A stretch of 64,000 nt of DNA from an uncultured Clostridia bacterium (lineage in GTDB: Bacteria; Bacillota; Clostridia; Oscillospirales; Oscillospiraceae), in assembly GCA_945877365.1 (NCBI GenBank), contig CAMCRV010000010.1, positions 1-64,000 of the forward strand. The letters are read 5' to 3'. This document shows, in pieces, positions 13,017-39,928 of this stretch (its first letter is position 1; each line of letters begins with the position of its first letter). The translations under genes were made by a program, and so were the position numbers. A model generated the notes under the pieces. The model saw only the letters and a program-made list of their open reading frames with translations, ran no database searches and was not told the origin of the DNA.

Positions 13017-13110
13017 GTCCGGATGCCCGGGCGGGCAATTACGAGAGGTTAGTCCGGTGGTAATCTTTCCATCCTCTGGGCGCGCCCGGTTCGTGACTGC
13101 GGAAACAATC
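13017..13110 (+). other. Conserved 95-nt element, copy 1 (candidate structured RNA)
   Basis: Read on the plus strand it begins with the hairpin GTCCGG-ATGC-CCGGGC (13017-13032). It then has ACGAGAGG, CCATCC, and a short hairpin GGG-CGCG-CCC followed by GGTTCG (13078-13093). It ends near GCGGAAACAATC, just before a terminator hairpin. Homologous copies lie after pnp and after rpsR. No protein is encoded. I do not recognise a named RNA family. Confidence 0.6.
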
Positions 13111-13117
13111 TATTGAA

Positions 13118-13147
13118 AAAGTCCTCCCCATTTGGGGAGGACTTCTT
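13118..13147. terminator. Terminator shared by thiT and the upstream element
   Basis: AAGTCCTCCCC-ATT-TGGGGAGGACTT, with A/T runs on both sides, between the conserved element (+) and the thiT stop codon (-). Confidence 0.8.
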
Positions 13148-13148
13148 C

Positions 13149-13799
13149 TTATGCCATTTTCCTGACGATGCCGGGAATCCGTGCAATCAGCAGGGCTGCC
13201 ACAGCGGTGAGGATCATCTCGGGAATCATGTACATTCCGTTGTACACCAGGGAATAGACCCAGCCCAGAGCGGTGGGGGACAGGCTGGACACCAGATTGG
13301 CGCCCCACTGGGGGAAGCCCTCCTGCGTAAAGAACCACTCAGCCCAGCCGGAGAACAGGATGTAGCCGGACAGGACATGGGCGGCATACCGGGCGGCCAG
13401 AGCCAGGAGGCTTCCCAGCATCAGGCCTCTGCCGGGCTTGCTGTCATTCCGGAAGGCACCACCCAGACCCAGCAGGGTGTAGGCCAGAATGTAGTCCAGC
13501 AGGCACATGATGCAGGCGTTCAGCAGCATGGCGTCGTCACCGAAGTAACCGGGCTGGAAGGCGGCGGCCACGGTCTTGGCGCCGATGAGCATCTCAATCA
13601 GGGCATAGGTGAAGGAGGCCACGAAGCCCCACTTCATGCCATAGCGGTAGGAAATCAGCACCACCGGCAGCATACTCACCAGTGTCACCTGTCCGCCGAA
13701 GGGCATCTCGGGAATGATCATCTTGGCGGTGAACTCCAGCACCACTGCCAGAGCCAGCAGCATGGCGCTTTCCGTCAGGCGTTTTGTCTTGTTTGTCAT
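13149..13799 (-). CDS. thiT: Thiamine-specific ECF transporter S component (ThiT-like)
   Basis: A 216-aa membrane protein with about six hydrophobic helices, beginning with TNKTKRLTESAMLLALAVVLEF, as in ThiT proteins. ThiT binds thiamine at the outer membrane face and works with shared ECF T and A subunits, which are not in this window. Two things support the substrate assignment: the family resemblance and a TPP riboswitch directly upstream. The ATG at 13799 follows AAAGGAG. A terminator hairpin between riboswitch and start provides the control point. Confidence 0.85.
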   Translation of the reverse strand: MTNKTKRLTESAMLLALAVVLEFTAKMIIPEMPFGGQVTLVSMLPVVLISYRYGMKWGFVASFTYALIEMLIGAKTVAAAFQPGYFGDDAMLLNACIMCLLDYILAYTLLGLGGAFRNDSKPGRGLMLGSLLALAARYAAHVLSGYILFSGWAEWFFTQEGFPQWGANLVSSLSPTALGWVYSLVYNGMYMIPEMILTAVAALLIARIPGIVRKMA

Positions 13800-13824
13800 G
13801 GTAATTTGCTCCTTTACAGAAAAA

Positions 13825-13860
13825 TGTCGCATTGCAAACCCGTCCAGGTGCAATGCGACA
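13825..13860 (-). terminator. Riboswitch expression-platform terminator
   Basis: A perfect 12-bp stem, TGTCGCATTGCA / TGCAATGCGACA, with a 12-nt loop. On the minus strand it is followed by ATTTTTC. It lies between the TPP aptamer and the thiT ribosome site, so TPP binding probably favours this hairpin and stops transcription. Confidence 0.8.
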
Positions 13861-13883
13861 CAAAAAAGCATCCCATATGTGCA

Positions 13884-13985
13884 TCTTTCCCTCCGACGGT
13901 ACTGACCGTATCAGGTTCACGGGTCTGGGCTACCAAGCCCACTCTCAGCCGGATGCACCCGGCTCCCCGAAGACTAATCTGTTCT
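13884..13985 (-). promoter_or_regulatory. TPP riboswitch (THI element)
   Basis: The minus strand carries the conserved THI-box blocks: GGGGAGCC...GGCTGAGAG, then ACCCGTGAACCTGATACGG, then CGGAGGGAAAG. Between them is a variable stem (GGGCTTGGTAGCCC). The order and spacing match the TPP aptamer. It sits between a strong promoter (13997-14024) and the thiT terminator. Confidence 0.95.
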
Positions 13986-13996
13986 GCGATGCTCCT

Positions 13997-14024
13997 ATTA
14001 TAGCGCGGTGGCGAAATTTGTCAA
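13997..14024 (-). promoter_or_regulatory. Promoter of the TPP riboswitch-thiT transcript
   Basis: TTGACA, 16-bp spacer, TATAAT on the minus strand. The -35 box overlaps the 3' end of the upstream HIT gene. Confidence 0.8.
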
Positions 14025-14362
14025 GCCATTTCCAGTGCCAGAGCCTTGCCCCCCAGAATGTGGAAGTGCAGGTGCTGCACCGTCTGGCCGGCATCGGCGC
14101 CGCAGTTGGAAACCACCCGGTAGCCCCCGGTCAGATTCTCGGCAGCGGCGATTTTGGGAATCTGGGTGAAGATGTGAGCCACCACGCAGGCGTTGTCGGC
14201 GGTGATGGCGTTGCAGTCGGCAATGTGGGTCTTGGGCACCACCAGGATGTGGGTGGGAGCCTGGGGGTTGATGTCCCGGAAGGCCAGAATCCTGTCGTCC
14301 TCATACACCTTTGTGGAGGGGATCTCCCCGGCCACGATCTTGCAGAATAAGCAGTTTTCCAT
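14021..14362 (-). CDS. hinT: HIT family (HinT-like) purine nucleotide hydrolase
   Basis: A 113-aa protein with the histidine triad QHLHFHILGG at the C-terminus, the N-terminal zinc-type CLFCKI start, and HILVVPKTHI. HinT proteins hydrolyse nucleoside phosphoramidates such as adenylated amines. Length and motifs match the family. It ends inside the -35 region of the thiT promoter, so the two units are tightly packed. Confidence 0.94.
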   Translation of the reverse strand: MENCLFCKIVAGEIPSTKVYEDDRILAFRDINPQAPTHILVVPKTHIADCNAITADNACVVAHIFTQIPKIAAAENLTGGYRVVSNCGADAGQTVQHLHFHILGGKALALEMA

Positions 14363-14397
14363 AGTTCTTCTCCTTTATTTTATTCTGATTCTCTTTT

Positions 14398-14429
14398 AAA
14401 ATGTTTCATCGATTCGGATGAAACATTTT
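14398..14429 (-). terminator. Terminator of the small exporter gene
   Basis: AAAATGTTTCATC / GATGAAACATTTT, 13-bp stem, loop CGATTC region, 16 bp past the stop of the exporter gene at 14445. It is A/T-rich with four T after the stem on the minus strand. Confidence 0.65.
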
Positions 14430-14444
14430 CATTGGAGAATCATA

Positions 14445-14918
14445 TTACAGGCCGAATACATGGATGCCAACCTTGCTGACAAACCCCATAATCAGACCCG
14501 CCAGAATCACGCCAAGTGACACCGCCGCACTAGTGGACTTGATGCCCATGTCCAGAAAGCTGGCAGCCAGAGTTCCCGTCCAGGCACCGGTGCCGGGGAT
14601 GGGAATCCCCACAAACAGCAGCAGCGCCATGAAGGAGCCGCCCCGCCCGGCACGCTGGGTCAGCCTGTGACCGCCCCGCTCCCCCTTCTCCAGACAGTGC
14701 AAGAAGAAGGGGCCGATGTATTTTTTGTTGCTGCCCCAGATCAGCACCTTCCGGGCAAAGAAATAGATAAAGGGTACCGGCAGCATATTGCCGATCACGC
14801 ACACGGCAAGTGCCTTGAAATAATCCAGGCCCATGCCCACCGCCATGACAACACCGCCCCGCAGCTCGATCAGCGGCACCATGGACACCAGAAAGACAAG
14901 CAGATATTTCCTCAGCAT
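14445..14918 (-). CDS. Small multidrug-export family membrane protein
   Basis: A 157-aa membrane protein with four or five hydrophobic segments and the motifs PLIELRGGVVMAVGMG, GNMLPVPFIYFFARKVL and VGIPIPGTGAWTG. These are characteristic of the Pfam small multi-drug export protein group (distantly DedA-like). The transported substrate is not known. The start ATG at 14918 follows GGGAG; the longer frame upstream has no ribosome site and reads through A/T-rich DNA. Confidence 0.8.
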   Translation of the reverse strand: MLRKYLLVFLVSMVPLIELRGGVVMAVGMGLDYFKALAVCVIGNMLPVPFIYFFARKVLIWGSNKKYIGPFFLHCLEKGERGGHRLTQRAGRGGSFMALLLFVGIPIPGTGAWTGTLAASFLDMGIKSTSAAVSLGVILAGLIMGFVSKVGIHVFGL

Positions 14919-15043
14919 TTCATTCTCCCAACGGATATTTGACCCAAGTATATCACAGTTTTTTCCCCTTCGCAACGGGATTTCCGGGAAAATGCTGAAA
15001 AAGGGTATGAATTTTTGGTGAATTTTTCCTGCTATCAATCATT

Positions 15044-15243
15044 CTGTCATTGCGAGCCAGTGCGCACACTGGCGTGGCAATCCGTTCTCCAAACGCTTTT
15101 GTCTTTATTGCGTTTTACGGCATATCTGTGCTTTCTTGGGCAAACGGATTCCCACGGCCGCTTCGATGAATGATAGAATGATTGCCACCGGCAATCATTG
15201 AGATTGCAGATTCGCTGCGCGGAGCACCACCTCGGAATGACAT
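15044..15243. repeat. Palindromic repeat, family E copy 3 (long form)
   Basis: Inverted ends CTGTCATTGCGA / TCGGAATGACA. It has a hairpin CCAGTG-CGCA-CACTGG (15055-15070), CAATCCG / CGGATT arms, and extra inverted sequence around ATGATTGCC...GGCAATCAT. With the terminator at 15262 it fills the 385-bp gap. No gene is visible there. Confidence 0.65.
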
Positions 15244-15261
15244 ACTCTTTTTTGCTACGCT

Positions 15262-15289
15262 AAAGGGCGCTGCGTTTGCAGCGCCCTTT
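15262..15289 (-). terminator. Terminator of the ROK kinase gene
   Basis: AAAGGGCGCTGC-GTTT-GCAGCGCCCTTT right after the stop at 15304 (minus strand). Confidence 0.8.
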
Positions 15290-15303
15290 GGGGAATTGAT
15301 CAT

Positions 15304-16683
15304 TTAGAGAATCGGAAGAGATGCGGCTGCCACGGACTGACCAACCCGGCGCATCTTCTCATCGGGCAGGGTGACGCAGCACTTGGCTGCCAGCTCGGGG
15401 TACTCGTCTGCCAGAATCTCGTTGCACACCCGCAGGATGGTGTCGCCGCCCTTGCCGGACATGACACGGCCCAGCAGCATCATGTAGTCGATGTTGTAGA
15501 ACTGAGAGTACAGCACCACGGTGTAAGCAAGGTATGCGCCGATGGTCTCGAAGACAGCGATGGCACGCTCGTCGTCAGCCTCCATCAGCTTCTGGACGAA
15601 CTTCAGCTTCTCGGCCAGAGACAGATCCTCGGGGATCTGGATGCCTGCCCAGGGGGCCAGCTTGATAACGGCATCCTGAGAGAAGTACTTGCAGCCCACG
15701 CCGTAGTCGGTGGACCACTCGTCCTGCATGGCACCGTCCTGCAGGTCAACGGGGGCAAAGGCCAGCTCATTGATCCAGCCCAGAACATTCTTGTCCTCGT
15801 CCACATAGCCCACGGCCTCGGAGGTGCCCATGGCGATGCCCATCAGGTTGCCCTTGCCCAGACCCATGGCGCCTGCCAGAGCGGAGACATCGCCGTCGTT
15901 TGCCACCAGAATGGGGACATTGGGGTCGATTTCCGCAGCAGCGCGGTCGTAGATGGTCTTCACCTTGTCCCAGTTGGAGCGGGGAACCTTGATGAACAGA
16001 GAGGCCACCATGGGAGCGTTGCCGATGAAGGTACCGGCGGAGGAAACGCCGATGGCGTCCACCCGGGGCATCTTGGAAGCGGCGGTCTTGAAGGCCTCAA
16101 CGATGTGACCGAAGTGGTAGTCGGGATCCTCCTGCAGTTTGGGGAACCAGACCACTTCCTCGGAGTAGACGCACTCGCCGTCGATGACAGCGGAGACCTT
16201 CCGGTCGGAGCCGCCGGCGTCGAAGCCGATGCGGCAGCCGTCCATATGGCCGCCCATGGGCTCAGCCACCTCGTTGGCGGCAGGGCACTCCTCCAGAGGC
16301 AGATCCAGAATCTCCAGATCCCGCTCGTAGAGCTGATTGACGAAGGTAAAATCAAAGTGGCGCTCACCCTCGGGGGTGTAGGCCTTCTTCAGCCGCTGCG
16401 CCAGCTCGCTGCAGCCGCAGATGGACACCCGGAAGCCGCCGGTGGACCACAGCAGGAACTTGACATAACGCTCCACATAGCGGTAGTCGGCCTCTGCCAT
16501 TTCGGGGGTGCCGTGGATCATGGTGTGGTGGACGGAAACCCGACCCTTGTCCCGCTCCAGTGCGATGGCCAGAGGCTTGGAAGCGCCCTTCAGATACGCC
16601 TCGCGCCAGACACCAAAGGGAATAAAGGTGGGATCCAGCTTGGGTGCGTGCTTCATTTCATAGTTAACGCCTAAGTACTGCAT
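15304..16683 (-). CDS. Atypical ROK-family sugar kinase (candidate amino-sugar kinase)
   Basis: A 459-aa protein. Residues about 152-170 are an actin-fold phosphate loop (IGFDAGGSDRKVSAVIDGE). Later motifs are AIGVSSAG, VANDGDVSALAGAMGLGKG and GIAMGTSEAVGYV, as in ROK kinases. About 150 N-terminal residues precede the kinase fold and match nothing I recognise. The ROK zinc motif CxCGxxGC is absent. It sits downstream of the sialic-acid genes, so GlcNAc or ManNAc are the likely substrates; this is inference from context. It ends at a strong terminator. Confidence 0.7.
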   Translation of the reverse strand: MQYLGVNYEMKHAPKLDPTFIPFGVWREAYLKGASKPLAIALERDKGRVSVHHTMIHGTPEMAEADYRYVERYVKFLLWSTGGFRVSICGCSELAQRLKKAYTPEGERHFDFTFVNQLYERDLEILDLPLEECPAANEVAEPMGGHMDGCRIGFDAGGSDRKVSAVIDGECVYSEEVVWFPKLQEDPDYHFGHIVEAFKTAASKMPRVDAIGVSSAGTFIGNAPMVASLFIKVPRSNWDKVKTIYDRAAAEIDPNVPILVANDGDVSALAGAMGLGKGNLMGIAMGTSEAVGYVDEDKNVLGWINELAFAPVDLQDGAMQDEWSTDYGVGCKYFSQDAVIKLAPWAGIQIPEDLSLAEKLKFVQKLMEADDERAIAVFETIGAYLAYTVVLYSQFYNIDYMMLLGRVMSGKGGDTILRVCNEILADEYPELAAKCCVTLPDEKMRRVGQSVAAASLPIL

Positions 16684-16780
16684 GGGATTTTCCTCCTCTT
16701 ATCATTGAAATCGTAAATTCATTATAGCACAGCTGGGCATACTTGCAATAGAATTTTCGCCATCTTTTTTGTCATTTTAA

Positions 16781-17431
16781 CTATTTTGCCAGCTGTTTAT
16801 CATAGCCCATATCAACAAGCTGACGAAAAGCCTCCCAAGCCTGCTCCGGAATCTCCTGAGGAAGCTGGTAGCCCAGTCTGGCATACAAATCCATCCGCTG
16901 GAAGTCCCCAACGATGACGCTGATGGAGCCCTCCCGGGTCATGCCCTGCCGCTCCGCCTCCCGGAGGTATTCCGGAATGGTGACCTGGGGGGAGGTGACC
17001 CGGAAGCTCTGCTCCGGCCAGTACACCCCCATGGCGGCGCAGATCCGCCGCTCCATGAAGGGCTGGTGCACACCCAGAATCCTCTCGTGCTTCAGCTCCA
17101 GCCGCTCCAGCATTTCCCGGGTGAACAGGATATTCTCCTTGGTGTTGGTGGATTGATCCTCCCGGAGGATATCCCCCTCCGGTACGCCGCATTCCATGGC
17201 CACCCGGGCAAACCGCTCTGCCTCCGGCTCCGACAAAAGATTTTTGGTGTTCCGGCCAAGGCCGCCGGTGAACAGAATTTTGGGGGCATAGCCCTGCAAA
17301 TACAGCTCCGCCGCCCGGCGGGCGATGTTGTCATTGAAATTGCCGAAGCCCACAATCACATCGGCCTTTTCCGGCTTCTGGTGCATCCCCAGATAGTCCC
17401 AGAGAATCTGCAAAGGGGGTAAAAAGTCCAT
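16781..17431 (-). CDS. YdcF/SanA-like DUF218 protein
   Basis: A 216-aa protein with the DUF218 core: DVIVGFG near the N-terminus, KILFTGGLGRNT, SEPEAERFARVAMECGVPEGDI and EDQSTNTKENI. Members bind nucleotide-like ligands or act in envelope integrity; the substrate is unknown. It has no N-terminal membrane helix and is therefore cytoplasmic. The ATG at 17431 is preferred because GGAGA lies six bases upstream; an in-frame ATG at 17443 is possible. It lies between nanA and the ROK gene, after a terminator. Confidence 0.8.
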   Translation of the reverse strand: MDFLPPLQILWDYLGMHQKPEKADVIVGFGNFNDNIARRAAELYLQGYAPKILFTGGLGRNTKNLLSEPEAERFARVAMECGVPEGDILREDQSTNTKENILFTREMLERLELKHERILGVHQPFMERRICAAMGVYWPEQSFRVTSPQVTIPEYLREAERQGMTREGSISVIVGDFQRMDLYARLGYQLPQEIPEQAWEAFRQLVDMGYDKQLAK

Positions 17432-17455
17432 AGTTTTCTCCATTTTTCTGAAAAA

Positions 17456-17482
17456 CGCCGCCGGAGAAACTCCCCGGCGGCG
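17456..17482 (-). terminator. Terminator after nanA
   Basis: CGCCGCCGG / CCGGCGGCG stem followed by TTTTT on the minus strand, 7 bp past the nanA stop. It separates nanA from ydcF, though read-through is possible. Confidence 0.8.
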
Positions 17483-17488
17483 AAAAAC

Positions 17489-18397
17489 TTAGCAGTACTT
17501 AGCTTCGGCGGCGCGGATCATGGCGACGCACTCGTCCACGATGGGCATATCGGCCTCAATCAGCTCAGCCAGAGGAGCCCGGACAGAGCCGCAGTCGATG
17601 CCGTGGTGCTTGCGCAGAATCTCCTTGATGACGGCATACATATTGCCGTGGGCGGAGCACATCTTGTAGATGATGCGGCAGCATTCGTTCTGGATCTCCA
17701 GAGCGGTGGCCAGATCGCCCTCCTTCACCAGCTTGAACAGCTTCACATACAGGCCGGGCATGACGCCGTAGGTGCCGCCGATGCCGCCGGTGGCGCCCAT
17801 CACCAGACCGGAAATCAGCTGCTCATCGGGGCCGTTGAAGACGATGGCACCCTCGTCCCGCCACATCTGGATGTCCTGAGTGGGCATGGAGGAGTTCTTG
17901 ACGCCGATGCACCGGGGATTCTTCAGCATCTCCTTCAGCAGAGGCACGGACAGAGCCACACCGGCCAGCTGGGGGATGTTGTAGATGATGAAATCGGTGT
18001 TGGGAGCGGCTGCGGAGATGTCATTCCAATACTTGGCAATGGCATAGGGGGGCAGCTTGAAATAGATGGGGGGGATGGAGGCGATGGCATCCACGCCCAG
18101 GCTCTCGGCATGGGCAGCCAGCTCCTGAGAGTCGGCGGTGTTGTTGCAGGCCACATGGGCGATGATGGTGAGCTTACCCTTGGCCTCAGCCATGACATTC
18201 TCCAGAACGATCTTCCGATCCTCCTTGCTCTGGTAGATGCACTCGCCGGAGGAGCCGCCCACATACAGGCCCTTGACACCCTGAGCGATGAACCAACGGG
18301 TCAGGCTGCGGACGCCTTCGGGGTTGATCTTACCTTCTGCGTCGTAGCAGGCGTAGAAAGCGGGAATAATGCCTTCATACTTTTTTGTATCAACCAT
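17489..18397 (-). CDS. nanA: N-acetylneuraminate lyase
   Basis: A 302-aa DHDPS-superfamily aldolase. It has LYVGGSSGECIYQS (the lyase form of the GSTGE substrate loop), IYNIPQLAG (catalytic Tyr) and CIGVKNSS (Schiff-base Lys). The Q-S after the loop and NIPxLxGV favour sialic acid lyase over DapA, and a separate dapA exists at 42749. It splits N-acetylneuraminate into ManNAc and pyruvate. The ATG at 18397 follows GGAG at eight bases; an upstream in-frame GTG has no better site. It is last in the importer operon. Confidence 0.9.
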   Translation of the reverse strand: MVDTKKYEGIIPAFYACYDAEGKINPEGVRSLTRWFIAQGVKGLYVGGSSGECIYQSKEDRKIVLENVMAEAKGKLTIIAHVACNNTADSQELAAHAESLGVDAIASIPPIYFKLPPYAIAKYWNDISAAAPNTDFIIYNIPQLAGVALSVPLLKEMLKNPRCIGVKNSSMPTQDIQMWRDEGAIVFNGPDEQLISGLVMGATGGIGGTYGVMPGLYVKLFKLVKEGDLATALEIQNECCRIIYKMCSAHGNMYAVIKEILRKHHGIDCGSVRAPLAELIEADMPIVDECVAMIRAAEAKYC

Positions 18398-18449: not shown

Positions 18450-18457
18450 TATTTGAT

Positions 18458-26819: not shown

Positions 26820-26926
26820 AACTGTCATTGCGAAGGTGACCGCAGGTCACCTGTGGCAATCCGTATTCCCCTTTCAAGGAGAGCGGATTCCCACGCCATC
26901 CTGTCGGATGGCTCGGAATGACAGTT
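26820..26926. repeat. Palindromic repeat, family E copy 2
   Basis: Inverted ends AACTGTCATTGCGA / TCGGAATGACAGTT with hairpins GTGACCGCAGGTCAC (26836-26850) and GCCATCC-TGTC-GGATGGC. Nearly identical to the copy at 7314, apart from the middle and the second hairpin loop. Confidence 0.75.
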
Positions 26927-26934
26927 TTTCTTTT

Positions 26935-27274: not shown

Positions 27275-27459
27275 AAATTGGAATTTGACGAGGAGATGCC
27301 TTCCCCTTTGGGGAAGGTGCCCCAGTGCGCACACTGGGGCGGAAGAGGGCGGTGAAGCGTAAATCATTTCTTATGTTTCGGTGAAACGATAGGAGCCTCT
27401 CCCGACCTCGCTTACGCTCGGCCACCCTCCCCAAAGGGGAGGGCTTTTGGCATCCCCAG
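27275..27459. mobile_element. MITE-like element, family B copy 2 (right end missing)
   Basis: Left terminus AAATTGGAATTTG, hairpin GCCCCAGTG-CGCA-CACTGGGGC (27319-27340), and the GC-rich palindrome CCCTCCCCAAAGGGGAGGG. It is almost identical to the copy at 31519, but it stops at GGCATCCCC without the right terminal repeat, exactly where the transglutaminase stop codon begins. Confidence 0.7.
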
Positions 27460-31518: not shown

Positions 31519-31718
31519 AAATTGGAATTTGGCGAGGAAATGCCTTCCCCTTTGGGGAAGGTGCCCCAGTGCGCACACTGGGGCGGAAGAGGGCGGTGAA
31601 GCGTAAATCATTTCTTATGTTTCGGCGAAACGATAGGAGCCTCTCCCGACCTCGCTTACGCTCGGCCACCCTCCCCGAAGGGGAGGGCTTTGGCAGACAC
31701 ACCGCCAAATTCCAATTT
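31519..31718. mobile_element. MITE-like element, family B copy 3 (complete)
   Basis: 200 bp with perfect 12-bp termini AAATTGGAATTT / AAATTCCAATTT, each preceded or followed by TA. The internal hairpin GCCCCAGTG-CGCA-CACTGGGGC is at 31563-31584. Outer palindromes match the copies at 1118 and 27275. It lies in the 548-bp gap between moxR and pnp, which otherwise holds a family D fragment (31725-31760), terminators and the conserved element. Confidence 0.8.
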
Positions 31719-31760: not shown

Positions 31761-31762
31761 GA

Positions 31763-31793
31763 AAAAGAGCGTGCTTTCGCACGCTCTTTTCAG
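31763..31793 (-). terminator. pnp terminator
   Basis: AAAAAGAGCGTGC-TTTC-GCACGCTCTTTT, T-rich on both sides. On the minus strand it follows pnp and the conserved element. An almost identical hairpin is at 54357-54386. Confidence 0.8.
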
Positions 31794-31794: not shown

Positions 31795-31886
31795 CTATTT
31801 CCGCAAAAACGAACCGGGCGAGCCCAGAGGATGGAAAGACCACAGCCAGTCCCAAATCTCGTAGGTGCCAGCCGGGGCATCCCGGC
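31795..31886 (-). other. Conserved 95-nt element, copy 2 (pnp 3' UTR)
   Basis: Read on the minus strand it starts right after the pnp TAA with hairpin GCCGGG-ATGC-CCCGGC (31886-31871). It then has TACGAGA, CCATCC, GGG-CTCG-CCC-GGTTCG, and ends near GCGGAAATAGTC before the terminator at 31793. The 5' hairpin differs from copy 3 by a swapped base pair. It is probably transcribed as part of the pnp mRNA. Confidence 0.6.
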
Positions 31887-34004
31887 TTAGCCGTTCATTT
31901 CCTTCAGGGCGTCCTTACGGGAGAAGTTGGCACGGCCCTTCTCGTCGAAGCCCATGAACTTGACCCAGGTCATGTCGCCCAGATTCAGAACATCCTCCAC
32001 CTTTTCCACACGGCGGTTCTCCAGCTTGGAGATGTGCACCATGCCGTCATGGCCGGGAGCGATTTCCACAAAGGCGCCGATGGGCAGGATGCGAACCACC
32101 TTGCCGTAGTACAGCTTGCCCACCTCGGGAACGAAGCAGATGTCGTCCACCATCTTCTTGGCGGCGTAGGCAGCGGCGGCGTCCACGGCGGAGATGAAGA
32201 CGGAGCCGTCGTCATCGATGTCCACCTTGGCGCCGGTGTCGGCGCAGATCTTCTGGATGGTCTTGCCGCCGGAGCCGATGACCTCCCGGATCTTGTCCAC
32301 GGGGATCTTCAGGCTGATCATCTTGGGAGCGTACTCGCTCACCTCGGCGCGGGGCTCGGGGATGCAGGGCAGAATTACCTCGCTGAGAATCTCCAGACGG
32401 GCCTTGCGGCAGCGTTCCAGAGCGTCGGCGATGATCTCCATGGTCAGACCCTTGTTCTTCAGATCCATCTGAATGGCGGTGATGCCCTCGGTGGTACCGG
32501 CCACCTTGAAGTCCATCTCGCCGTGGAAGTCCTCAACGCCCTGAATATCGGTGAAGGTTCTCCATGCGCCGGTCTCCTGATCGGAGATGAGGCCGCAGGA
32601 AATACCGGCAACAGGCCGCTTGATGGGCACGCCGGCGTCCATCAGAGCCAGGGTAGAGCCGCAGATGGAGCCCTGAGAGGTGGAGCCGTTGGAGCTAAGC
32701 ACCTCGGAAACCACCCGGATGGCGTAGGGGAACTCCTCCACGCTGGGGATCACAGGCAGCAGAGCCTTTTCCGCCAGTGCGCCGTGGCCGATTTCCCGAC
32801 GGGAGGTGGAGCGGGCGGCTCTTGCCTCGCCGGTGGAGAAGGCGGGGAAGTTGTAGTGGTGGATATACCGCTTGGTCTCCTCGGGGTAGATGGTGTCCAG
32901 CTTCTGGGCGGCGGACAGGGGATTCAGGGTGCAGATGCTCAGCACCTGAGTCTGACCACGGGAGAACAGGCCGGAGCCGTGGACTCTGGGCAGCACGCCA
33001 ACCTCGGCATCCAGAGGACGGATCTCGTCCATGCCGCGGCCGTCCACACGCTTGCCCTCCAGCAGCCACTTCTTGACCACCTTCTTCTGCATCTTGTACA
33101 GGCAGACCTCGATGTGGGTCTCGAAGTCCTCGTACTTGTCGGCAAACTTGTCGGCAAAGTCCAGACGGGCAGCGGTGAGCCGCTCCTCCCGGACATTCTT
33201 GTCGTCGGTGTCCAGAGCGTACTCGATCTGGGGAAGGCCGTAGGCCATCAGGTCGTCCAGCAGCTCGTGGTTGACGGCGGCCTTCTCGAAGGTGAACTTG
33301 GGCTTGCCGATCTCGGCCACGATGCCATTGATGAACTTGACGATCTCCATGTTGGTCTCGTGGGCCACACGGATGCACTCGTAGACGATATCCTCGGGAG
33401 CCTCGTTGGCCTCGGTCTCGATCATCACCACCTTCTCGAAGGTGGAGGAGATGCACACGAAGCACTTGCAGGCCTCACGCTGCTCAGCAGAGGGGTTGAT
33501 GATATACTCGCCGTCCAGGTAAGCCACATTGGTGGTGGCCACAGGGCCGTTCCAGGGCACATCGGAGGAAGCGATGGCGATGGAGGCGCCCAGAGAGGCT
33601 ACGATCTCCACGGGGTTCTCGTAGTCGTTGGCCAGCACGGTGCAGGTGACCACGGTGTCGTTGCGCAGCTCCTCGTCAAAGAGAGGGCGCATGGGGCGGT
33701 CGATGATCCGGCTGTTGAGGATGCCCCGCTCGGAGGGCTTTCCCTCCCGGCGGTTGAAGGAGCCGGGGATGCGGCCCACGGCATACATCCGCTCCTCAAA
33801 CTCGATGGTCAGGGGGAAGTAGTCGATGCCGGCCTTGGGGATGGGGTTGCAGGTGCAGGTGGTCAGCACCACGGTGTCGCCGTAGCGGCAGATGCACTCG
33901 GCGTTGGCCAGCTCAGCCACCTTGCCGGTTTCCACGGTGAAGGTGCGGCCGCCGATTTCCATCTCATAAACATGATGGTTGGGATACTGCTTGCGCTTGA
34001 TCAT
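31887..34004 (-). CDS. pnp: Polyribonucleotide nucleotidyltransferase (PNPase)
   Basis: A 705-aa phosphorolytic 3'-5' exoribonuclease. It has two RNase PH-like domains (about 10-230 and 300-540, with GSTSQGSICGSTLALMDAGVP in the second), a KH domain (about 555-615, GSGGKTIQKI) and a C-terminal S1 domain (about 622-695, GKVVRILPIGAFVEI). Length and order match the family. It degrades mRNA and can add tails. The ATG at 34004 has CAGGAGG. It lies downstream of rpsO in the usual order. The 3' UTR holds the conserved 95-nt element. Confidence 0.97.
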   Translation of the reverse strand: MIKRKQYPNHHVYEMEIGGRTFTVETGKVAELANAECICRYGDTVVLTTCTCNPIPKAGIDYFPLTIEFEERMYAVGRIPGSFNRREGKPSERGILNSRIIDRPMRPLFDEELRNDTVVTCTVLANDYENPVEIVASLGASIAIASSDVPWNGPVATTNVAYLDGEYIINPSAEQREACKCFVCISSTFEKVVMIETEANEAPEDIVYECIRVAHETNMEIVKFINGIVAEIGKPKFTFEKAAVNHELLDDLMAYGLPQIEYALDTDDKNVREERLTAARLDFADKFADKYEDFETHIEVCLYKMQKKVVKKWLLEGKRVDGRGMDEIRPLDAEVGVLPRVHGSGLFSRGQTQVLSICTLNPLSAAQKLDTIYPEETKRYIHHYNFPAFSTGEARAARSTSRREIGHGALAEKALLPVIPSVEEFPYAIRVVSEVLSSNGSTSQGSICGSTLALMDAGVPIKRPVAGISCGLISDQETGAWRTFTDIQGVEDFHGEMDFKVAGTTEGITAIQMDLKNKGLTMEIIADALERCRKARLEILSEVILPCIPEPRAEVSEYAPKMISLKIPVDKIREVIGSGGKTIQKICADTGAKVDIDDDGSVFISAVDAAAAYAAKKMVDDICFVPEVGKLYYGKVVRILPIGAFVEIAPGHDGMVHISKLENRRVEKVEDVLNLGDMTWVKFMGFDEKGRANFSRKDALKEMNG

Positions 34005-34596: not shown

Positions 34597-34631
34597 GGAG
34601 AATTTTCGGATTTTCCCGAAAATTCTCCTTG
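34594..34631 (-). terminator. plsY terminator
   Basis: AAGGAGAATTTTCGG / CCCGAAAATTCTCCTT arms just past the plsY stop. The stem partly overlaps the rpsO -35 box. Confidence 0.75.
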
Positions 34632-34638
34632 AAATCTT

Positions 34639-35259
34639 CTATTGCTTCCGCAGATTTGCCAGCTTCTCCACCAGATACGACCGCACCGGGGTTTCCTGAT
34701 GGTTCTTGGCTTTTTTCACATTATCCATGTGCATATGCACCAGCACCAGTCCGGCAACGGCGGCAATGGCCACCTCCGCAAAGTCCCCGGAGCGCAGCGC
34801 CACCACCACCGGGAAGAGGATTCCGGCGGAGATGGGGCCGGCAAAGCCATAGTCAAAAATAGCTACCTGCAAAATTCCGAAGCCGAAGAGGGACAGGAAC
34901 ACCGCGGGGCTGTAGGCCAGCAGCAGGCCGCCGAAGGCCGCCACGCCCTTTCCTCCCTTAAAATGCAGGAACAGGGAAAAATCATGGCCGATCATGGCCC
35001 CCAGACTGCCCAGCATCCCGGCGTATTTCAGCATGGGAAACAGCTTCTGCGCCAGATGGGCAGAAAGAATCGCCTTGGCCACATCCAGAAGCATCACAAT
35101 CAGGCCGCAGCCCTTGCCCAGCAGCAGCATGGTGTTGGTGGCACCCAGATTGCCGGTGCCGTTGGTCTTCAGATCCACATGCTTCCACCGGGAAAACAGA
35201 GCCGCCGGGTTGATGCTGCCTATGAAGTAGCCCAGACCCAAACTCATAATCGCTTCCAT
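34639..35259 (-). CDS. plsY: Glycerol-3-phosphate acyltransferase PlsY
   Basis: A 206-aa membrane protein. The three PlsY motifs are visible: GYFIGSINPA with NGTGNLGATNT, GHDFSLFLHFKGGKGVA, and the later hydrophobic helices. PlsY transfers acyl groups from acyl-phosphate to glycerol-3-phosphate, the first step of phospholipid synthesis. The C-terminus is somewhat longer and charged. The gene has its own terminator. Confidence 0.93.
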   Translation of the reverse strand: MEAIMSLGLGYFIGSINPAALFSRWKHVDLKTNGTGNLGATNTMLLLGKGCGLIVMLLDVAKAILSAHLAQKLFPMLKYAGMLGSLGAMIGHDFSLFLHFKGGKGVAAFGGLLLAYSPAVFLSLFGFGILQVAIFDYGFAGPISAGILFPVVVALRSGDFAEVAIAAVAGLVLVHMHMDNVKKAKNHQETPVRSYLVEKLANLRKQ

Positions 35260-35329
35260 TCTATCTCTCCTTTCCCCAAACGGGAAACCTAATATCGCCA
35301 GATGCGCGTTGGATAAAGAAAAATCAGCA

Positions 35330-35475
35330 AATTGATAATTGACAATTGACAGTTGACAATAATTGTGTCCCTGGAGGACAGATTAAAATAATATCCGTAA
35401 ATTTCAGTCGATTTCTTTTTCTTCCATCCCAAAGGGATTCCTTAATTGTCAATTTTCCATTGTCAATTGTCAATT
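35330..35475. repeat. Heptad-armed repeat, family D copy 4
   Basis: Left 7-mers TTGACAA, core with GTCCCTGGAGGAC and ATCCCAAAGGGAT, right 7-mers TTGTCAA. It lies in the plsY-rsmG gap, 8 bp from the rsmG stop. Confidence 0.7.
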
Positions 35476-35482
35476 GAATAAC

Positions 35483-36184
35483 TTAAAGCGGCATTTGCTT
35501 GATTTTGGCAAAGCGACGGGGGTATTGCCTGGGGGTGGGAGCCACCTTGCGCAGCACGATCACCGCATGGGCGGTGCCGTCGATGGGAAATTCCCGGACT
35601 TCCTCCAGCTTCAGCCCCAGCTTTTTCATGGCGTTGCCGCACTCCGCCAGCTCTTCCCTGGCGGCGGCGCCCTTCATAGCCAGCACCGCGCCCCCCACCT
35701 TCACATAGGGTGCCGTCAACTCCAGCAGGATATTCAGTCGGGCAACCGCCCGGGAGGTGGCAAAATCGTAGCTCTCCCGACGGGTGGCAACTGCCTCCTC
35801 CGCCCGGGCTGTGACGCACTCCGCCCGGATGCCCAGCTGGGGCAGGACAGCTTCCAGCCATTTCATCCGCTTGCCAAGGGAATCCAGCAGCGTGATGTCC
35901 GCTTCCGGGCAGGCGATGGCCAGGGGCACCCCGGGGAAACCTGCACCGCAGCCCACATCCACCAGCCGCTTTCCGGAAAGATCCTGCGTTGCCAGCACCG
36001 TCAGGGAATCCAGCAGGTGCAGATTGGCAACGCCCTTATCGTCGGTGATGCCCGTCAGGTTCATCACCTCGTTCTGCTTCACCATGGCACGGCCAAAGGC
36101 GCAGAGGGTATCGATTTTCTCCTCCGTCAGGTGTAGGCCCAGTTGGGGCAGCCCTTCCGTCAGAGTCTGTTTCATCTCATCCAT
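35483..36184 (-). CDS. rsmG: 16S rRNA (guanine527-N7)-methyltransferase RsmG
   Basis: A 233-aa methyltransferase with MNLTGITDDKGVANLHLLDSL in the N-terminal part, SAM motif VDVGCGAGFPGVPLAIA (about 75-91) and the LDSLGKRMKWLE segment. RsmG makes m7G527 in the 30S decoding region. The ATG at 36184 has AAGGAA upstream; a longer frame reads into the DUF3810 gene end. It is 13 bp from that gene. Confidence 0.94.
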   Translation of the reverse strand: MDEMKQTLTEGLPQLGLHLTEEKIDTLCAFGRAMVKQNEVMNLTGITDDKGVANLHLLDSLTVLATQDLSGKRLVDVGCGAGFPGVPLAIACPEADITLLDSLGKRMKWLEAVLPQLGIRAECVTARAEEAVATRRESYDFATSRAVARLNILLELTAPYVKVGGAVLAMKGAAAREELAECGNAMKKLGLKLEEVREFPIDGTAHAVIVLRKVAPTPRQYPRRFAKIKQMPL

Positions 36185-36197
36185 AGTAAATTTTTCC

Positions 36198-37361
36198 TTA
36201 GTGAATAATGTCGCTGACATCCACCTGATTTCTGTCGAAGGGGTCAAAGACGAACTCCTCCGTGCTGATGGAGGGCAGCACCACCTGCTGGATATGCCAG
36301 TTCACCAGCAGATCGCAGACCTGACTGTAGGAGCCGATGCCGGCGCTGTCTCCGCTGGAGCGCAGGTAGGTGTCATTGGCGGTATCGGCAAAGCTGGCGG
36401 CGGCATCGTTCCGCTTTTGGGAAAAGAAGCTGCTGTAGTTGTTGAGATCCGTTTGCAGCTTCTGACCCACCCCCTCCTTAATCTCCTTTGCCGCCAGCAC
36501 GCCGTCCTGGGTTCGGATGGTGGACAGGGCATTGAAGCAGTAGCGGTAGGCCATGAAGTAGGCGGAATACTCAAATTCCACATCCGGGTGGACACTGCAG
36601 GCAAGGAATGCGGCGAAGTTAGCGTCCCGTTCGTTGGCGATGCACATCCGGTGTGCCATCTCATGACACATTGTAAAGGGCAGGGCCACATCGGGAATCT
36701 GGGGATTCACGGCGGCCTCACCGGTGATGCCAAAGGTGACGCCGGTGATACCCATGGAGGAATACATATCCGCCCAGCCCAGCTTCTTTACCGGCAGCTT
36801 ACATCCGGCAAACACGGGGTAGGAGTGTTCCAGGGTCAGAACCTCAAAGCCCTCCCCGGCTCTTTCTGCCAGGGTATCGAAATCGGCAAGCTGGGCAACG
36901 CCGCTGCCGTCCCGCTTCACCTGCTCCGACAGGATGTTGGCCTTGTCCCGGTAGTATTCCGTGGCCTCCTTCAGCTCAGACAGGGTATACTGAGCCACCT
37001 CCAGCCGCAGATCGTCGGACAGGGGACCGGCATAGTAGTTGAGCCCCCACATCAGGGTATGCAGCATATACACTGCGGCGGCGATGCTCAGCATCCAGCC
37101 GCCCCATCCAATGAGGCTGCGCCGGGTGGCGACGACCACCACCAGAGATGCCAGCACAATGACACCCAGCACCACTGCCAGAAACTGCCACAGCAGGAAA
37201 TCCACCTGCCCCGACCAGCCTGCCAGAAAATCCTCCATGGTGCGCACCACATAGGGGTAAACCATATCCACCAGGGTGGAGTACCGGGAGCCAAACTGCT
37301 GCAGCACCCAGGTAAATCCGGCGAGGATGCCGGCAACCAGATAACCGAACCAATATTTCAA
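36198..37361 (-). CDS. DUF3810 membrane metalloprotease-like protein
   Basis: A 387-aa protein with three N-terminal membrane helices (about 2-20, 55-80, 88-108). A large soluble domain contains the zinc-protease motif TMCHEMAHRM (HExxH, about residues 232-241) and a downstream ANERDANF where the glutamate may be the third ligand. This fits DUF3810. Substrate unknown. It is upstream of rsmG in the same direction. Confidence 0.85.
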   Translation of the reverse strand: MKYWFGYLVAGILAGFTWVLQQFGSRYSTLVDMVYPYVVRTMEDFLAGWSGQVDFLLWQFLAVVLGVIVLASLVVVVATRRSLIGWGGWMLSIAAAVYMLHTLMWGLNYYAGPLSDDLRLEVAQYTLSELKEATEYYRDKANILSEQVKRDGSGVAQLADFDTLAERAGEGFEVLTLEHSYPVFAGCKLPVKKLGWADMYSSMGITGVTFGITGEAAVNPQIPDVALPFTMCHEMAHRMCIANERDANFAAFLACSVHPDVEFEYSAYFMAYRYCFNALSTIRTQDGVLAAKEIKEGVGQKLQTDLNNYSSFFSQKRNDAAASFADTANDTYLRSSGDSAGIGSYSQVCDLLVNWHIQQVVLPSISTEEFVFDPFDRNQVDVSDIIH

Positions 37362-37454
37362 AGGAAACGCCTCCTTGTATCTGTCAAAAGGGATAGTTCG
37401 TTATAGTATATCATATTTTTCTTCGCTTGTCTGCCCTCAAATTGTAAAAATTTT

Positions 37455-37521
37455 GCCCGGATGCCCGGGCAGGCGTGGCAATCCGTTCCCCAATTGTCAA
37501 TTGTCAATTATCAATTGTCAA
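37455..37521. repeat. Composite of family E fragment and family D heptads
   Basis: GCCCGG-ATGC-CCGGGC hairpin and GGCGTGGCAATCCG (family E-like), directly followed by CAATTGT-type 7-mers (37491-37521). The heptads run into the spoIIP coding end. The hairpin is the same as in the conserved 95-nt element. Confidence 0.55.
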
Positions 37522-38497
37522 TTTCCACGCTTCCGCCTCCCAACGCCGCAATCGCCTGCGCCAGCTTTTCCGCCGCCAGAAGAGCCTCCTGTCTTGTGTT
37601 TCCTGCGGCACCCACCTCAATCAGCAGGCTTCCGGGGCACAGATCCTGATTGAACCGCTGCTCTGTCAGGGAAATGGGGCGCATGATCCCCGGGGTATCC
37701 CGTTCCAGAAGAACATAGAGCTTTTCTCCCAGCGCCAGATTTTCCTGCCAATGGTCATGGTTTGTCCCCAGCACCAGCATCAGCTGAGCTGCTGTCCCCG
37801 TATCGGTTTCCGCCTGCGTCCGGAGCTGATTGCCCACGGTTCCGGCGGCATCCCGGTGCAGATCCAGAATCAGCCGGATTCCCGGGTTTTCCGCCAGAAT
37901 TTTTTCTGCCGTTTCCCGGGAGTGGCCGTAAGAGCCGTTATAGGAAGGATAGTCGTGGAGGGTGGTGTCATGGATCACCCCGATGCCCTGCTGCTCCAGA
38001 ATTTCCGCCACCCGGCTGCCGATGCACAGCATATTCCAGTCCTCATCCAGGGTGCGGTAGGCGCCGCTTTCTTCGTAGTCCTCCCCCTCCTGGGTATAGC
38101 TCTCCGTGGCGTGGGTGTGGAGAATCAGCACCCGTTTTTCCCCGTCTGCCAGATTCCAGTCCAGGGGCTGGGTCAGCAAAGCCTGCAAATCCGGCCGATG
38201 CTGGCAGCTGTAGCGGATGGCGATGTCCTCCGCCTCCTGCCGGGAGAACACCGCCCTGTCCGGCTCGGGCAGCACAGGGGCAGGGGATTCCCGGGAAAAT
38301 GCCGCCACGGTGTTCTTCCGGGATAAAGAAAACCGGACATCCCGTCCGGTTTCTAAGTATATCAGGAACGATGCCATATCCGGCTGGGACAGCCGCCGTA
38401 AAACTCTCTCCGGCACCCCGGCCATCCACAGCCGGAGCACCAGCGCCCATGCAATAGCCGCCTTGCCCACCTGCAGGCTGCGGCGATAGGAATTCAT
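37511..38497 (-). CDS. spoIIP: Stage II sporulation protein P
   Basis: A 328-aa protein with an N-terminal membrane anchor (about 10-27) and the SpoIIP amidase domain, with RVLILHTHATESYT (about 140-153), LHRDAAG and a C-terminal LLIEVGAAGNT segment. SpoIIP cuts the septal peptidoglycan with SpoIID during engulfment, so the organism probably can sporulate. The last residues VEIDN and the stop are encoded by heptad repeat DNA. It starts 15 bp downstream of tadA. Confidence 0.92.
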   Translation of the reverse strand: MNSYRRSLQVGKAAIAWALVLRLWMAGVPERVLRRLSQPDMASFLIYLETGRDVRFSLSRKNTVAAFSRESPAPVLPEPDRAVFSRQEAEDIAIRYSCQHRPDLQALLTQPLDWNLADGEKRVLILHTHATESYTQEGEDYEESGAYRTLDEDWNMLCIGSRVAEILEQQGIGVIHDTTLHDYPSYNGSYGHSRETAEKILAENPGIRLILDLHRDAAGTVGNQLRTQAETDTGTAAQLMLVLGTNHDHWQENLALGEKLYVLLERDTPGIMRPISLTEQRFNQDLCPGSLLIEVGAAGNTRQEALLAAEKLAQAIAALGGGSVEIDN

Positions 38498-38512
38498 AGC
38501 ACTCCTCCATCC

Positions 38513-39001
38513 TCAGTTTTCCGTTTTCGGCCTCCATTTCGGCCGGGAGCGCAGCTCCACCCGAAGCTCCTGAAAGAAGGCTTTCAGCAGCGCCGCGGCC
38601 TCCTCCTCCCGAACACCCCGGACTACCTCCGGGTGGTGGTTGAAATTCATGGAAAACAGGCTGCACACGGAATCCACCGCGCCGCATTTGCTGTCCGCCG
38701 CCCCGTAGACCACCCGGGGAATCCGGGCGTTGAGGATGGCGCCGGCGCACATGGGGCAGGGCTCCAGGGTCACATACAGGGTGCACTCCCACAGCCGCCA
38801 GCCCCCCAGGTTCCGGCAGGCATCGTTGATGGCCTCCAGCTCCGCATGACCCAGCGCGGTTCTGTCCCCCTCCCGGCGGTTGCGGCCCCGGCCTACCACC
38901 TCGCCGTTGCGGACGATGACGCAGCCCACCGGCACCTCTCCGGCAGCGTCGGCCTGCCGCGCCAGCTCCAGCGCCTGATCCATAAATTCCAAATCCTCCA
39001 C
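38513..39001 (-). CDS. tadA: tRNA-specific adenosine deaminase TadA
   Basis: A 162-aa zinc deaminase. The catalytic motif GHAELEAIN and the PCPMCAGAI ligands mark the cytidine/deoxycytidylate deaminase fold, and FNHHPEVVRGV is typical of TadA. It converts A34 to inosine in the arginine tRNA anticodon. I prefer GTG 39001, which follows GGGGGA; an ATG six codons later (38983) with GGAGG is the alternative. Confidence 0.92.
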   Translation of the reverse strand: MEDLEFMDQALELARQADAAGEVPVGCVIVRNGEVVGRGRNRREGDRTALGHAELEAINDACRNLGGWRLWECTLYVTLEPCPMCAGAILNARIPRVVYGAADSKCGAVDSVCSLFSMNFNHHPEVVRGVREEEAAALLKAFFQELRVELRSRPKWRPKTEN

Positions 39002-39042
39002 GAAAGATCCCCCCTTTTTCTTATGATACCCCAAAACCACCG

Positions 39043-39069
39043 GTTTGGGAAGAGGGTTCTTTCCCAAAC
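39043..39069. promoter_or_regulatory. Perfect inverted repeat upstream of tadA
   Basis: GTTTGGGAA / TTCCCAAAC, 9-bp arms with a 9-nt centre, between tadA and the small-ORF trio. It could be an operator. TATACT-like boxes lie on both strands nearby. Confidence 0.35.
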
Positions 39070-39126
39070 AGTATACGCCACTGTCCCCTGCGAATGCTAC
39101 CGAAAAAGCTCCACCGGATTATTCGA

Positions 39127-39155
39127 CGGACAAGGGCCTTCCCGCGTGGTATACT
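39127..39155 (+). promoter_or_regulatory. Extended -10 promoter for the small-ORF trio
   Basis: CGGACA, 17-bp spacer, TGGTATACT. The predicted start falls at the ribosome site (AAGGAGG, 39162-39168), so the leader would be nearly absent. Confidence 0.5.
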
Positions 39156-39175
39156 GCCTGCAAGGAGGGACGAAA

Positions 39176-39499
39176 TTGCATGGAATCGAAGATATTTTGC
39201 ACACGGATCCCCAGTGTGCCACCCCGGCAGGATTCTGCCCGGTCTGCGGAGGGGAATGTTACCGTCCGAGTCTTTACTGTATCCGATGCGAAAGGAGCCT
39301 GTATGACATTACTGGAGATCAGCCACGACTACGAGACCTCTGCGGCGCTGCTGCAGAAGCGACTGAAGGAGCTGCGGCAAATGATGAAAACGGAAACCGA
39401 TCCGGAAAAGCTGTGGCATATCCGGCGCAGGATTGTGGCACTGACGCCCCTGCTCACCGAGATGAACGAGCTGGCGGAACTCACCGCTCATTACTATGA
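39176..39499 (+). CDS. Small zinc-ribbon ORF (real end uncertain)
   Basis: A TTG at 39176 stands 8 bases behind GGAGG, an ideal site. The first 42 codons read as a zinc ribbon: FCPVCGGECYRP then CIRCER. The frame then runs on for about 65 codons through the next gene in another frame, with composition that looks non-native. So either the two genes overlap heavily, or the ribbon protein has lost its own stop through a frameshift. Function unknown; such small ribbons often accompany phage-type regulators. Confidence 0.4.
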   Translation: MHGIEDILHTDPQCATPAGFCPVCGGECYRPSLYCIRCERSLYDITGDQPRLRDLCGAAAEATEGAAANDENGNRSGKAVAYPAQDCGTDAPAHRDERAGGTHRSLL

Positions 39500-39536
39500 C
39501 AGGGGGTACTGGCGGAATGAAAAGTACACCGTATAA
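39303..39536 (+). CDS. Small conserved-looking helical protein
   Basis: A 77-aa protein, mostly coiled helix: ALLQKRLKELRQMM, RRRIVALTPLLTEMNELAEL, then TAHYYDRGYWRNEKYTV. The ATG at 39303 follows AAAGGAG. I know of similar short proteins near phage-like sigma genes in clostridia but cannot assign a function. It overlaps both the zinc-ribbon frame and the sigma-like gene. Confidence 0.6.
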   Translation: MTLLEISHDYETSAALLQKRLKELRQMMKTETDPEKLWHIRRRIVALTPLLTEMNELAELTAHYYDRGYWRNEKYTV

Positions 39537-39759
39537 CAGCTGCAAGGCAAGCCGCCGGGACCGGGATTTGCAGCTGGAACGGGTACACCGGATTCTCAAT
39601 CAGGAGCTGACCCCTGCCCAGCGGGAGGTGTATACCGCCCACTATCTGCAGGGAATGAGCATCCCGGCCATCGCCCGGATGCGGGGCGTAAACAAAACCT
39701 CTGTCTACCGCATTTTCTACCGGGCGGAGAAAAAGATGCAGAAATTTCTGATGTATTAG
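39517..39759 (+). CDS. Small sigma-70 region 4-like HTH protein
   Basis: An 80-aa protein whose second half is a helix-turn-helix: LTPAQREVYTAHYLQGMSIP then ARMRGVNKTSVYRIFYRAEKKMQ, as in sigma factor region 4. It lacks region 2, so it cannot be a complete sigma factor. It overlaps the previous ORF by 20 bp and is the last of the trio. Proteins of this type control late genes in phages or mobile elements; here no other phage gene is visible. Confidence 0.65.
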   Translation: MKSTPYNSCKASRRDRDLQLERVHRILNQELTPAQREVYTAHYLQGMSIPAIARMRGVNKTSVYRIFYRAEKKMQKFLMY

Positions 39760-39788
39760 GGAGCAGTGAGAAGTTAGCAGGGGGAGGT

Positions 39789-39830
39789 CGGATTGCCACG
39801 CCATTGTGCGCAATGGCTCGCAATGACAGA
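39789..39830. repeat. Family E half-element
   Basis: CGGATTGCCAC, hairpin GCCATTG-TGCG-CAATGGC, then TCGCAATGACAG. Only the half with one terminus is present. It abuts the conserved element copy 3. Confidence 0.6.
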
Positions 39831-39928
39831 GATAGACCATACAGGCACAAACGAACCGGGAATGCCCTAAGGATGTAACGACTACCACCAGACTTACCTC
39901 TCGCCATTGCCCGCCCGGGCATCCGGGC
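39831..39928 (-). other. Conserved 95-nt element, copy 3 (after rpsR)
   Basis: On the minus strand: hairpin GCCCGG-ATGC-CCGGGC (39928-39913), GGCGAGAGG, TGGTGGTAGTC, CATCC, then GGG-CATT-CCC-GGTTCG and a tail through GTGCCTGTATGG. It starts right after the T run of the rpsR terminator, the same position as copy 1 after its gene. Confidence 0.6.

Follow-up and report, generated by a model that had tools for sequence, protein, structure and literature searches.

We analyzed a 64,000-nucleotide (nt) stretch of DNA, hereafter the window, from an uncultured Clostridia bacterium of the Oscillospiraceae (assembly GCA_945877365.1, contig CAMCRV010000010.1, positions 1 to 64,000). It carries three copies of a repeated element in the 3′ regions of a short gene with weak resemblance to HPr, of pnp, and of rpsR. 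The initial annotation had described three sense-strand copies of approximately 95 nt at these places, two starting at the end of a terminator T run and one right after the pnp stop codon, and a direct reading of the sequence confirms each of these points. The copies and the features around them, by position and strand, are the following.

12984–13016, + strand: terminator-like hairpin with T run upstream of copy 1, read from the sequence
13017–13110, + strand: copy 1, sense, adjoining the terminator T run of a 76-aa weakly HPr-like gene (12737–12967)
13017–13032, + strand: hairpin 1 of copy 1, GUCCGG-AUGC-CCGGGC
13025–13036, + strand: loop-tail complementarity in copy 1, 13025–13026 (GC) with 13035–13036 (GC), equivalent to model positions 9–10 with 19–20, based on family-wide covariation
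13035–13100, + strand: possible long-range stem P2 of copy 1, 13035–13037 and 13039–13045 with 13090–13096 and 13098–13100
13118–13149, + strand: terminator-like hairpin with T-rich tail downstream of copy 1, read from the sequence
31761–31788, − strand: terminator of pnp, after copy 2, from the sequence and a hairpin scan
31795–31886, − strand: copy 2, sense, directly 3′ of the TAA of pnp (31887–34004, − strand) and ahead of its terminator
31871–31886, − strand: hairpin 1 of copy 2, GCCGGG-AUGC-CCCGGC
39788–39828, − strand: second repeat (TGTCATTGCGAGCC..GGCGTGGCAATCC) adjoining copy 3, also present behind several other copies of this genome
39831–39928, − strand: copy 3, sense, directly 3′ of the T run of the rpsR terminator (rpsR, 39975–40211, − strand; Ribosomal_S18)
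39913–39928, − strand: hairpin 1 of copy 3, GCCCGG-AUGC-CCGGGC
39929–39963, − strand: terminator of rpsR, read from the sequence

The three copies share a mean column identity of 79% (MAFFT), and BLAST of copy 1 against its own genome recovers both others with similarity well above chance expectation (copy 3, E 9.1e-18; copy 2, E 1.6e-14). Copy 1 starts 49 nt and copy 3 starts 46 nt behind the stop codon of the respective gene. The HPr-like label given to the gene upstream of copy 1 rests on a sub-threshold PTS-HPr match (E 0.032). A second terminator had also been reported after two of the copies: a hairpin with a T-rich tail does follow copies 1 and 2, but at pnp it is the sole terminator, and copy 3 leads into the TGTCATTGCGAGCC repeat. 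The stem letters GTCCTCCCC/GGGGAGGAC of the 13118–13149 terminator recur behind the groEL copy elsewhere in the genome. The second, palindromic repeat (TGTCATTGCGAGCC..GGCRYGGCAATCC) stands directly 3′ of copies L005, L006, L007, L010, L014, and L042 of this genome (L, G, and C numbers are our handles for loci, genomes, and contigs); it occurs alone in the window at 15043–15090, with similar sequences at 7390–7452 and 26872–26934.

Each unit of the family consists of a 6-bp hairpin of freely varying sequence (hairpin 1), then about NCAAT-CG, then a core of approximately 60 nt. As the initial annotation described, the stem of hairpin 1 changes among the window copies around an AUGC loop. In an alignment of 140 distinct rows (A3), 98.9% of the hairpin 1 pair cells are paired and two-sided changes occur in all six pairs; the alignment was fitted to hairpin 1, which favors these counts and builds in part of the signal. 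We newly observed that the last two loop bases (positions 9–10) complement bases 19–20 just 3′ of the stem, with covariation that is not built in, as this pair is absent from the models. Taken together, hairpin 1 and the loop-tail pair form an eight-pair structure with a covariation score of 0.508, compared to 0.123 for shuffled alignments (0 of 500 reach it) and 0.024–0.093 when the structure is slid. Pair 9–20 is G-C in 134 of 135 cells, and pair 10–19 is C-G in 64, U-A in 32, G-C in 1, and unpaired in 25; in a slightly different count of the unpaired cells, 18 are C-U, with loop type TGC ahead of GTC. By eye, the loops in other families of the order follow the same rule (AGC with GGC, AGT with GAC). 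We refer to this feature simply as loop-tail complementarity, because with two bases separating stem and tail, a classical pseudoknot spanning six pairs would be under strain.

A long-range stem, P2 (GCA..CGAG with TTCG..TGC), is present in the minimum-energy folds of all three window copies. For copy 1, it is supported by the minimum-energy fold and by RNAalifold of the copies from this genome, and its covariation is weak. RNAalifold and the tests of P2 and of the second hairpin used 118 of 142 rows, split by hand into copies of this genome, one clade, and others; P2 is recovered by RNAalifold in this genome and in most other copies, but a different fold is predicted for one clade. The proportion of paired P2 cells is 90.4% in this genome and 86.0% in the others, which 3 and 1 of 500 shuffles attain; for two-sided changes, the counts are 1 and 6, and 34 and 33 of 500 shuffles attain as many. 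Among 110 parsed copies, CGA/CGG goes with TTCG in 52, CGT/CGC with TATCG/TAACG in 41, and CGT with TTCG in 7, with 10 other combinations, a count that leaves 22 further copies unparsed and is confounded by clade structure. The second hairpin of the initial annotation, GGG-NNNN-CCC, is present in the three window copies; its pairs break in other copies, and it shows no covariation beyond shuffles. The fold energies of the three window copies do not lie below those of shuffles (sense z −1.25, −0.40, −0.34; antisense z −0.70, 0.05, −0.41). A G-U pair had been taken as evidence for the sense strand; this is weak, as hairpin 1 across the family holds 10 G-U versus 5 A-C combinations, which is not decisive for strand.

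The genome (2.15 Mb, 61 contigs, 97.3% complete) contains 45 BLAST matches to copy 1 at E ≤ 1. A covariance model built from 21 of its copies (R1), with which copy 1, itself part of the training set, scores 106.9 bits, yields 78 matches at E ≤ 0.1; among the weaker of these, many are inverted partners of stronger ones. Within the genus, 58 of 136 genomes, this one included, have an R1 match at E ≤ 0.001, and the nearest named polynucleotide phosphorylase (PNPase) records belong to uncultured Oscillospiraceae and relatives, including Candidatus Faecousia. An order-wide search with a second model built from 142 matches (R2) found matches in 16 of 295 genomes (this genome and one congener counted), with G387 (tandem, 77 nt) and G169 as the sole genomes beyond the genus whose matches were strong. 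Weaker matches of this search are for the most part similar in the 5′ part, some of them again beginning at a T run (L324, L333). A class-wide sample of 291 genomes yielded four with matches at E ≤ 1e-4: this genome, G197 (both of the order), and two outside the order whose matches lie inside predicted genes, have a poor hairpin, and were judged to be chance.

No Rfam family matched the element in the window at gathering or permissive thresholds, and ten loci with copies gave no Rfam match above the gathering score, in agreement with the initial annotation, which knew no family with this pattern. We found no description of the family among the open-licence papers listed by our searches. Phage records and two viral-contig patterns gave no match either, hence no sign of a phage source at the sensitivity of that search. 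Other tandem repeats of the order (L326/L367 of G197, L325, L330, L331, L332) have the same kind of hairpin and an NCAA/NCGA stretch, followed by different 3′ parts.

Placement and orientation were tabulated for 145 distinct copies, comprising the matches from 98 searched loci and 11 groEL and pnp matches. This set is not random: 80 relative loci were hand-picked among the matches listed, and array members and shared sites are counted separately. Genes were called with a small codon-usage finder trained on pnp and named by separate protein matches. The copies divide into 105 simple ones, 22 flanked by a longer carrier sequence, and 18 that immediately follow another unit. The upstream gene is sense for 70 and antisense for 23 of the simple copies (undecided or none for 12), sense for 12 and antisense for 10 of the carrier-flanked copies, and sense for 15, antisense for 2, and absent for 1 of those behind another unit. 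The check on orientation and covariation in relatives that the initial annotation had suggested therefore gives a mixed answer, with strong stem covariation, yet both orientations.

Of the 105 simple copies, 23 have the start of hairpin 1 no more than 2 nt from the stop codon of a sense gene and 35 no more than 20 nt from it. The junction at stop codons reads TAA then G, or TA then G; the letters before hairpin 1, read by eye, are TAA, TA, T runs, and others. At L254, L209, and L253, the upstream frame enters hairpin 1 and ends at the element's own TGA 18 nt inside, lengthening the protein by a few residues. Three simple copies (L204, L084, L229) lie within 20 nt of an antisense gene start, each near the complement of an apparent ribosome-binding site (RBS), suggesting that target letters may outweigh transcript sense. 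In this genome, the upstream gene is sense for 14 of 17 simple copies and antisense for one (L038), with no upstream gene on the contig for two; array members are counted among these 17, as are two copies that have a carrier 5′ end (L003, L042). With arrays counted once, these two left out, and L004 added (5′ end free, carrier behind), 10 of 11 sites are sense, although a sign test on orientation overstates the independence of sites. Hairpin 1 falls at −1, 0, or +1 nt of the stop codon in six cases in this genome, namely groEL (L002), an ABC transporter gene (L006), pnp (L011), upp (L013), dnaA (L014), and a DUF4015 gene (array L019/L010); in three others (L001, rpsR L008, and L004), it adjoins the end of a terminator T run.

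The order stop codon, element, terminator is found at pnp, groEL (L002), L240, and L270. As a general rule, a unit with its own terminator was rejected: a perfect-stem terminator-like hairpin occurs within the next 330 nt of 8 of 29 copies at or near a stop codon on the sense strand and of 5 on the other strand, which is too few.

Units also occur in tandem, spaced by 75–77 nt in this genome (contigs C16 and C20) and by 65–124 nt in others, and arrays without a carrier are present in several genomes. A string test identified 22 near-identical composites in this genome and four more copies that are followed by carrier sequence. In a composite, two units meet tail to tail, the second being inverted and diverged, and most composites lie within AAATTGGAATTTG inverted ends; the upstream gene is sense for 9 of the 22 and antisense for 13. 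Two of the five parsed composites (L018, L020) have an 8-bp direct repeat outside a longer outer inverted repeat, TGTGCWTATCGG. In none of the 22 carrier-flanked copies among the 145 does hairpin 1 lie 2 nt or less from a stop codon. One composite of this genome, L036, lies directly behind a TGA and lacks the carrier 5′ end. Simple copies showed neither terminal inverted repeats nor target duplication, with no empty site found for comparison. Carriers with AAATTGGAATTTG inverted ends that resemble miniature inverted-repeat transposable elements (MITEs) also occur in the window at 27275–27447 and 31519–31691.

We then compared orthologous sites. For pnp, we used the 3′ regions (approximately 600 nt) of 60 relatives picked from those with a pnp match reaching the gene end; 11 stops were read by eye, and the contig of L408 ends 9 nt past the stop codon and is uninformative. 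Neither R2 matches nor perfect 6-bp hairpins occur immediately behind the stop codon in any of the 60. G076 (L426) has a degenerate element-like stretch directly after its pnp stop codon. Further on within the approximately 600 nt, 6 of 60 have R2 matches, five sense and one opposite, including one in G076 right at the point where the terminator T run ends and one in G060 close to that point. By BLAST, 0 of 114 relatives align past query position 2123, the element occupying 2119–2213 (match ends transcribed by hand; diverged copies would not align). Behind groEL, the element directly follows the TAA in 4 of the 29 loci with a C terminus found (30 loci): this genome, G009, G131, and G151, the latter three with arrays of three units each. 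At rpsR, it lies at the T-run end in 2 of the 29 loci with a C terminus found (30 loci), this genome and G030, and G104, from outside that set, is a third genome. In three relatives whose oadB-like gene ends are nearly identical, the units behind that stop codon are not the same. Overall, sites and arrays vary from one related species to the next, yet the element keeps recurring at certain spots.

With modest confidence, we read the element as a dispersed, probably mobile repeat of Oscillospirales that resides at gene ends, resembles known dispersed repeats of other bacteria, and is recognized as a folded strand. We file the family as a variant within dispersed bacterial repeats. Copy number, arrays, carrier copies in both orientations, and non-conserved sites fit a mobile repeat at gene ends, which the initial annotation had named as its alternative, and they argue against the discrete, conserved RNA gene of about 125 nt that it had proposed. 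Judged by these sequences, a conserved small RNA (sRNA) gene or cis-regulator is not supported, since orthologous positions are not conserved at pnp, groEL, or rpsR.

We hypothesize that a putative enzyme recognizes the folded single strand, whose core of approximately 60 nt may close by P2, and inserts it behind A/T-rich target letters. As these letters (the TA of a stop codon, a T run) are strand-specific, sense orientation would follow from them, and gene-end spots would be tolerated because the coding region, terminator, or RBS is left intact. The repeat would then spread and expand as DNA, and the pattern would not need selection on RNA at each site.

Several observations weigh against this reading. 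No mobilizing enzyme was found among the two families searched in this genome: Y1_Tnp (PF01797) gave 0 matches at E ≤ 1e-5, below which weak or broken genes could fall, and RVT_1 (PF00078) gave 0 at E ≤ 0.001 at 97.3% completeness. Around Y1 genes of relatives, 30 loci held no R2 match. Orthologous sites with and without the element offered no clean borders and no precise empty/filled pair, so that the 3′ end and target duplication of simple copies are undefined. A few other sites recur in two or three related genomes, where the number of units or the hairpin differs. Hairpin 1 is intact though copies of this genome differ by approximately 20%, which would fit selection on each copy; the sense bias of 70 versus 23 among simple copies is a further such observation, and T-rich target letters alone leave the exactness at stop codons unexplained.

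Among known repeats, those nearest in behavior appear to be the mycobacterial interspersed repetitive units (MIRUs). MIRUs are described as mobile and as causing little harm where they insert at start codons (PMC12548453). Both are short repeats, dispersed and in tandem, oriented with genes and placed at a gene boundary with little damage; our family differs in lying at stop codons and terminator ends, not start codons, in its 5′ hairpin, and in its phylum. For an internal open reading frame of the MIRU type, frame 0 is stop-free in 7 and frame 1 in 6 of 10 copies of this genome, where few stops are expected in approximately 97 G+C-rich nt.

The family shares with repetitive extragenic palindromic (REP) sequences and bacterial interspersed mosaic elements (BIMEs; PMC2817692) a high copy number, extragenic position, hairpin basis, and single and inverted-pair composite forms. 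It differs from the system of REPs and REP-associated tyrosine transposases (RAYTs) in its longer unit, conserved core, and freely varying stem, and in that this genome has no Y1 gene. REP palindromes are preceded by a fixed GTAG-type tetranucleotide. On these tests, the family is not a REP/RAYT system: Y1 gave no match in this genome at E ≤ 1e-5, the 30 Y1 loci held no unit, and a fixed tetranucleotide is absent (105 simple copies, by eye). A Y1 gene is present in 55 of 136 genus genomes, some of them with the family (G018, G125, G080), and the high-copy genomes G076, G004, G026, and G036 are not among them. A group II intron-derived element was likewise rejected, with no reverse transcriptase match in this genome. 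Correia/NEMIS, bcr1, and RUP/BOX-like repeats are dispersed and non-coding, as here, and can be co-transcribed; in our family, terminal inverted repeats or target duplication were seen in some carrier composites only, and not at simple copies. With the structured RNAs of Rfam, the element has in common a covarying hairpin on the sense strand but no match, the only hit being a riboswitch elsewhere in the window.

An RNA role may nonetheless exist for some copies. The fullest form of this idea, which is possible though in our judgment rather unlikely, is a functional 3′-region RNA: copies would fold in the transcript through hairpin 1, the loop-tail pair, and P2, would act in cis on mRNA 3′-end stability or termination or as a 3′-derived sRNA, and would be spread by recombination and retained by usefulness. 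It draws on the score of 0.508 versus 0.123 for hairpin 1 with the loop-tail pair, including the covariation at 10–19, although hairpin covariation cannot tell RNA from single-stranded DNA. The pairing levels of P2 and the way its letter variants match fit as well, whereas its two-sided changes are few, the second hairpin has none beyond shuffles, one clade folds differently, and fold energies are no lower than those of shuffles. The sense bias of simple copies, the stop codon–element–terminator order, and the three-unit groEL arrays of three relatives likewise suit an RNA; however, most orthologous sites are empty, the terminator-like hairpin follows only 8 of 29 stop-codon copies (5 on the other strand), and two of the three window copies, being placed past a terminator-like hairpin, would be in the main mRNA only on read-through. 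Of the function at the RNA level first proposed, the structured strand and the sense bias stand, and the fixed orientation does not, as both orientations occur.

Less likely still is that the family forms a class of mobile repeats not described before. Such a repeat would be recognized as a folded single strand with a loop-tail contact, and a putative enzyme would place it precisely where translation or transcription stops; what is inserted could be RNA, or the non-template strand left exposed where the machinery pauses. We think it improbable to a greater degree that the units are MITE remnants, with the unit as an inner part of the AAATTGGAATTTG carrier and simple copies as decayed carriers. 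The 22 composites and four carrier-followed copies of this genome and the 22 of 145 carrier-flanked copies would fit that origin, but stop-codon copies lack carrier ends, no carrier-flanked copy lies within 2 nt of a stop codon, carrier-free arrays occur in several genomes, and L036 suggests that a composite can form first. It is very hard to credit a mutational artefact, in which template switching perfects quasi-palindromes and inter-copy recombination keeps the hairpin without selection or transposition, as this would account for the few G-U or mismatched states and for both arms changing together but leaves the loop-tail covariation, the spread to new loci, and the stop-codon position unexplained.

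The probably mobile gene-end repeat that we favor adds a large structured repeat family in uncultured gut bacteria, absent from Rfam and from the open-licence literature searched. A hairpin flush with a stop codon or terminator end makes the targeting of gene ends by repeats a testable question. The family also illustrates that stem covariation alone does not prove RNA function, since dispersed repeats covary too.

Elsewhere in the window, a thiamine pyrophosphate (TPP) riboswitch lies at 13871–13979 (− strand; 68.3 bits, above the Rfam gathering score), and 12-bp tandem repeats occur within long open reading frames at 11009–11157 and 60790–60873.

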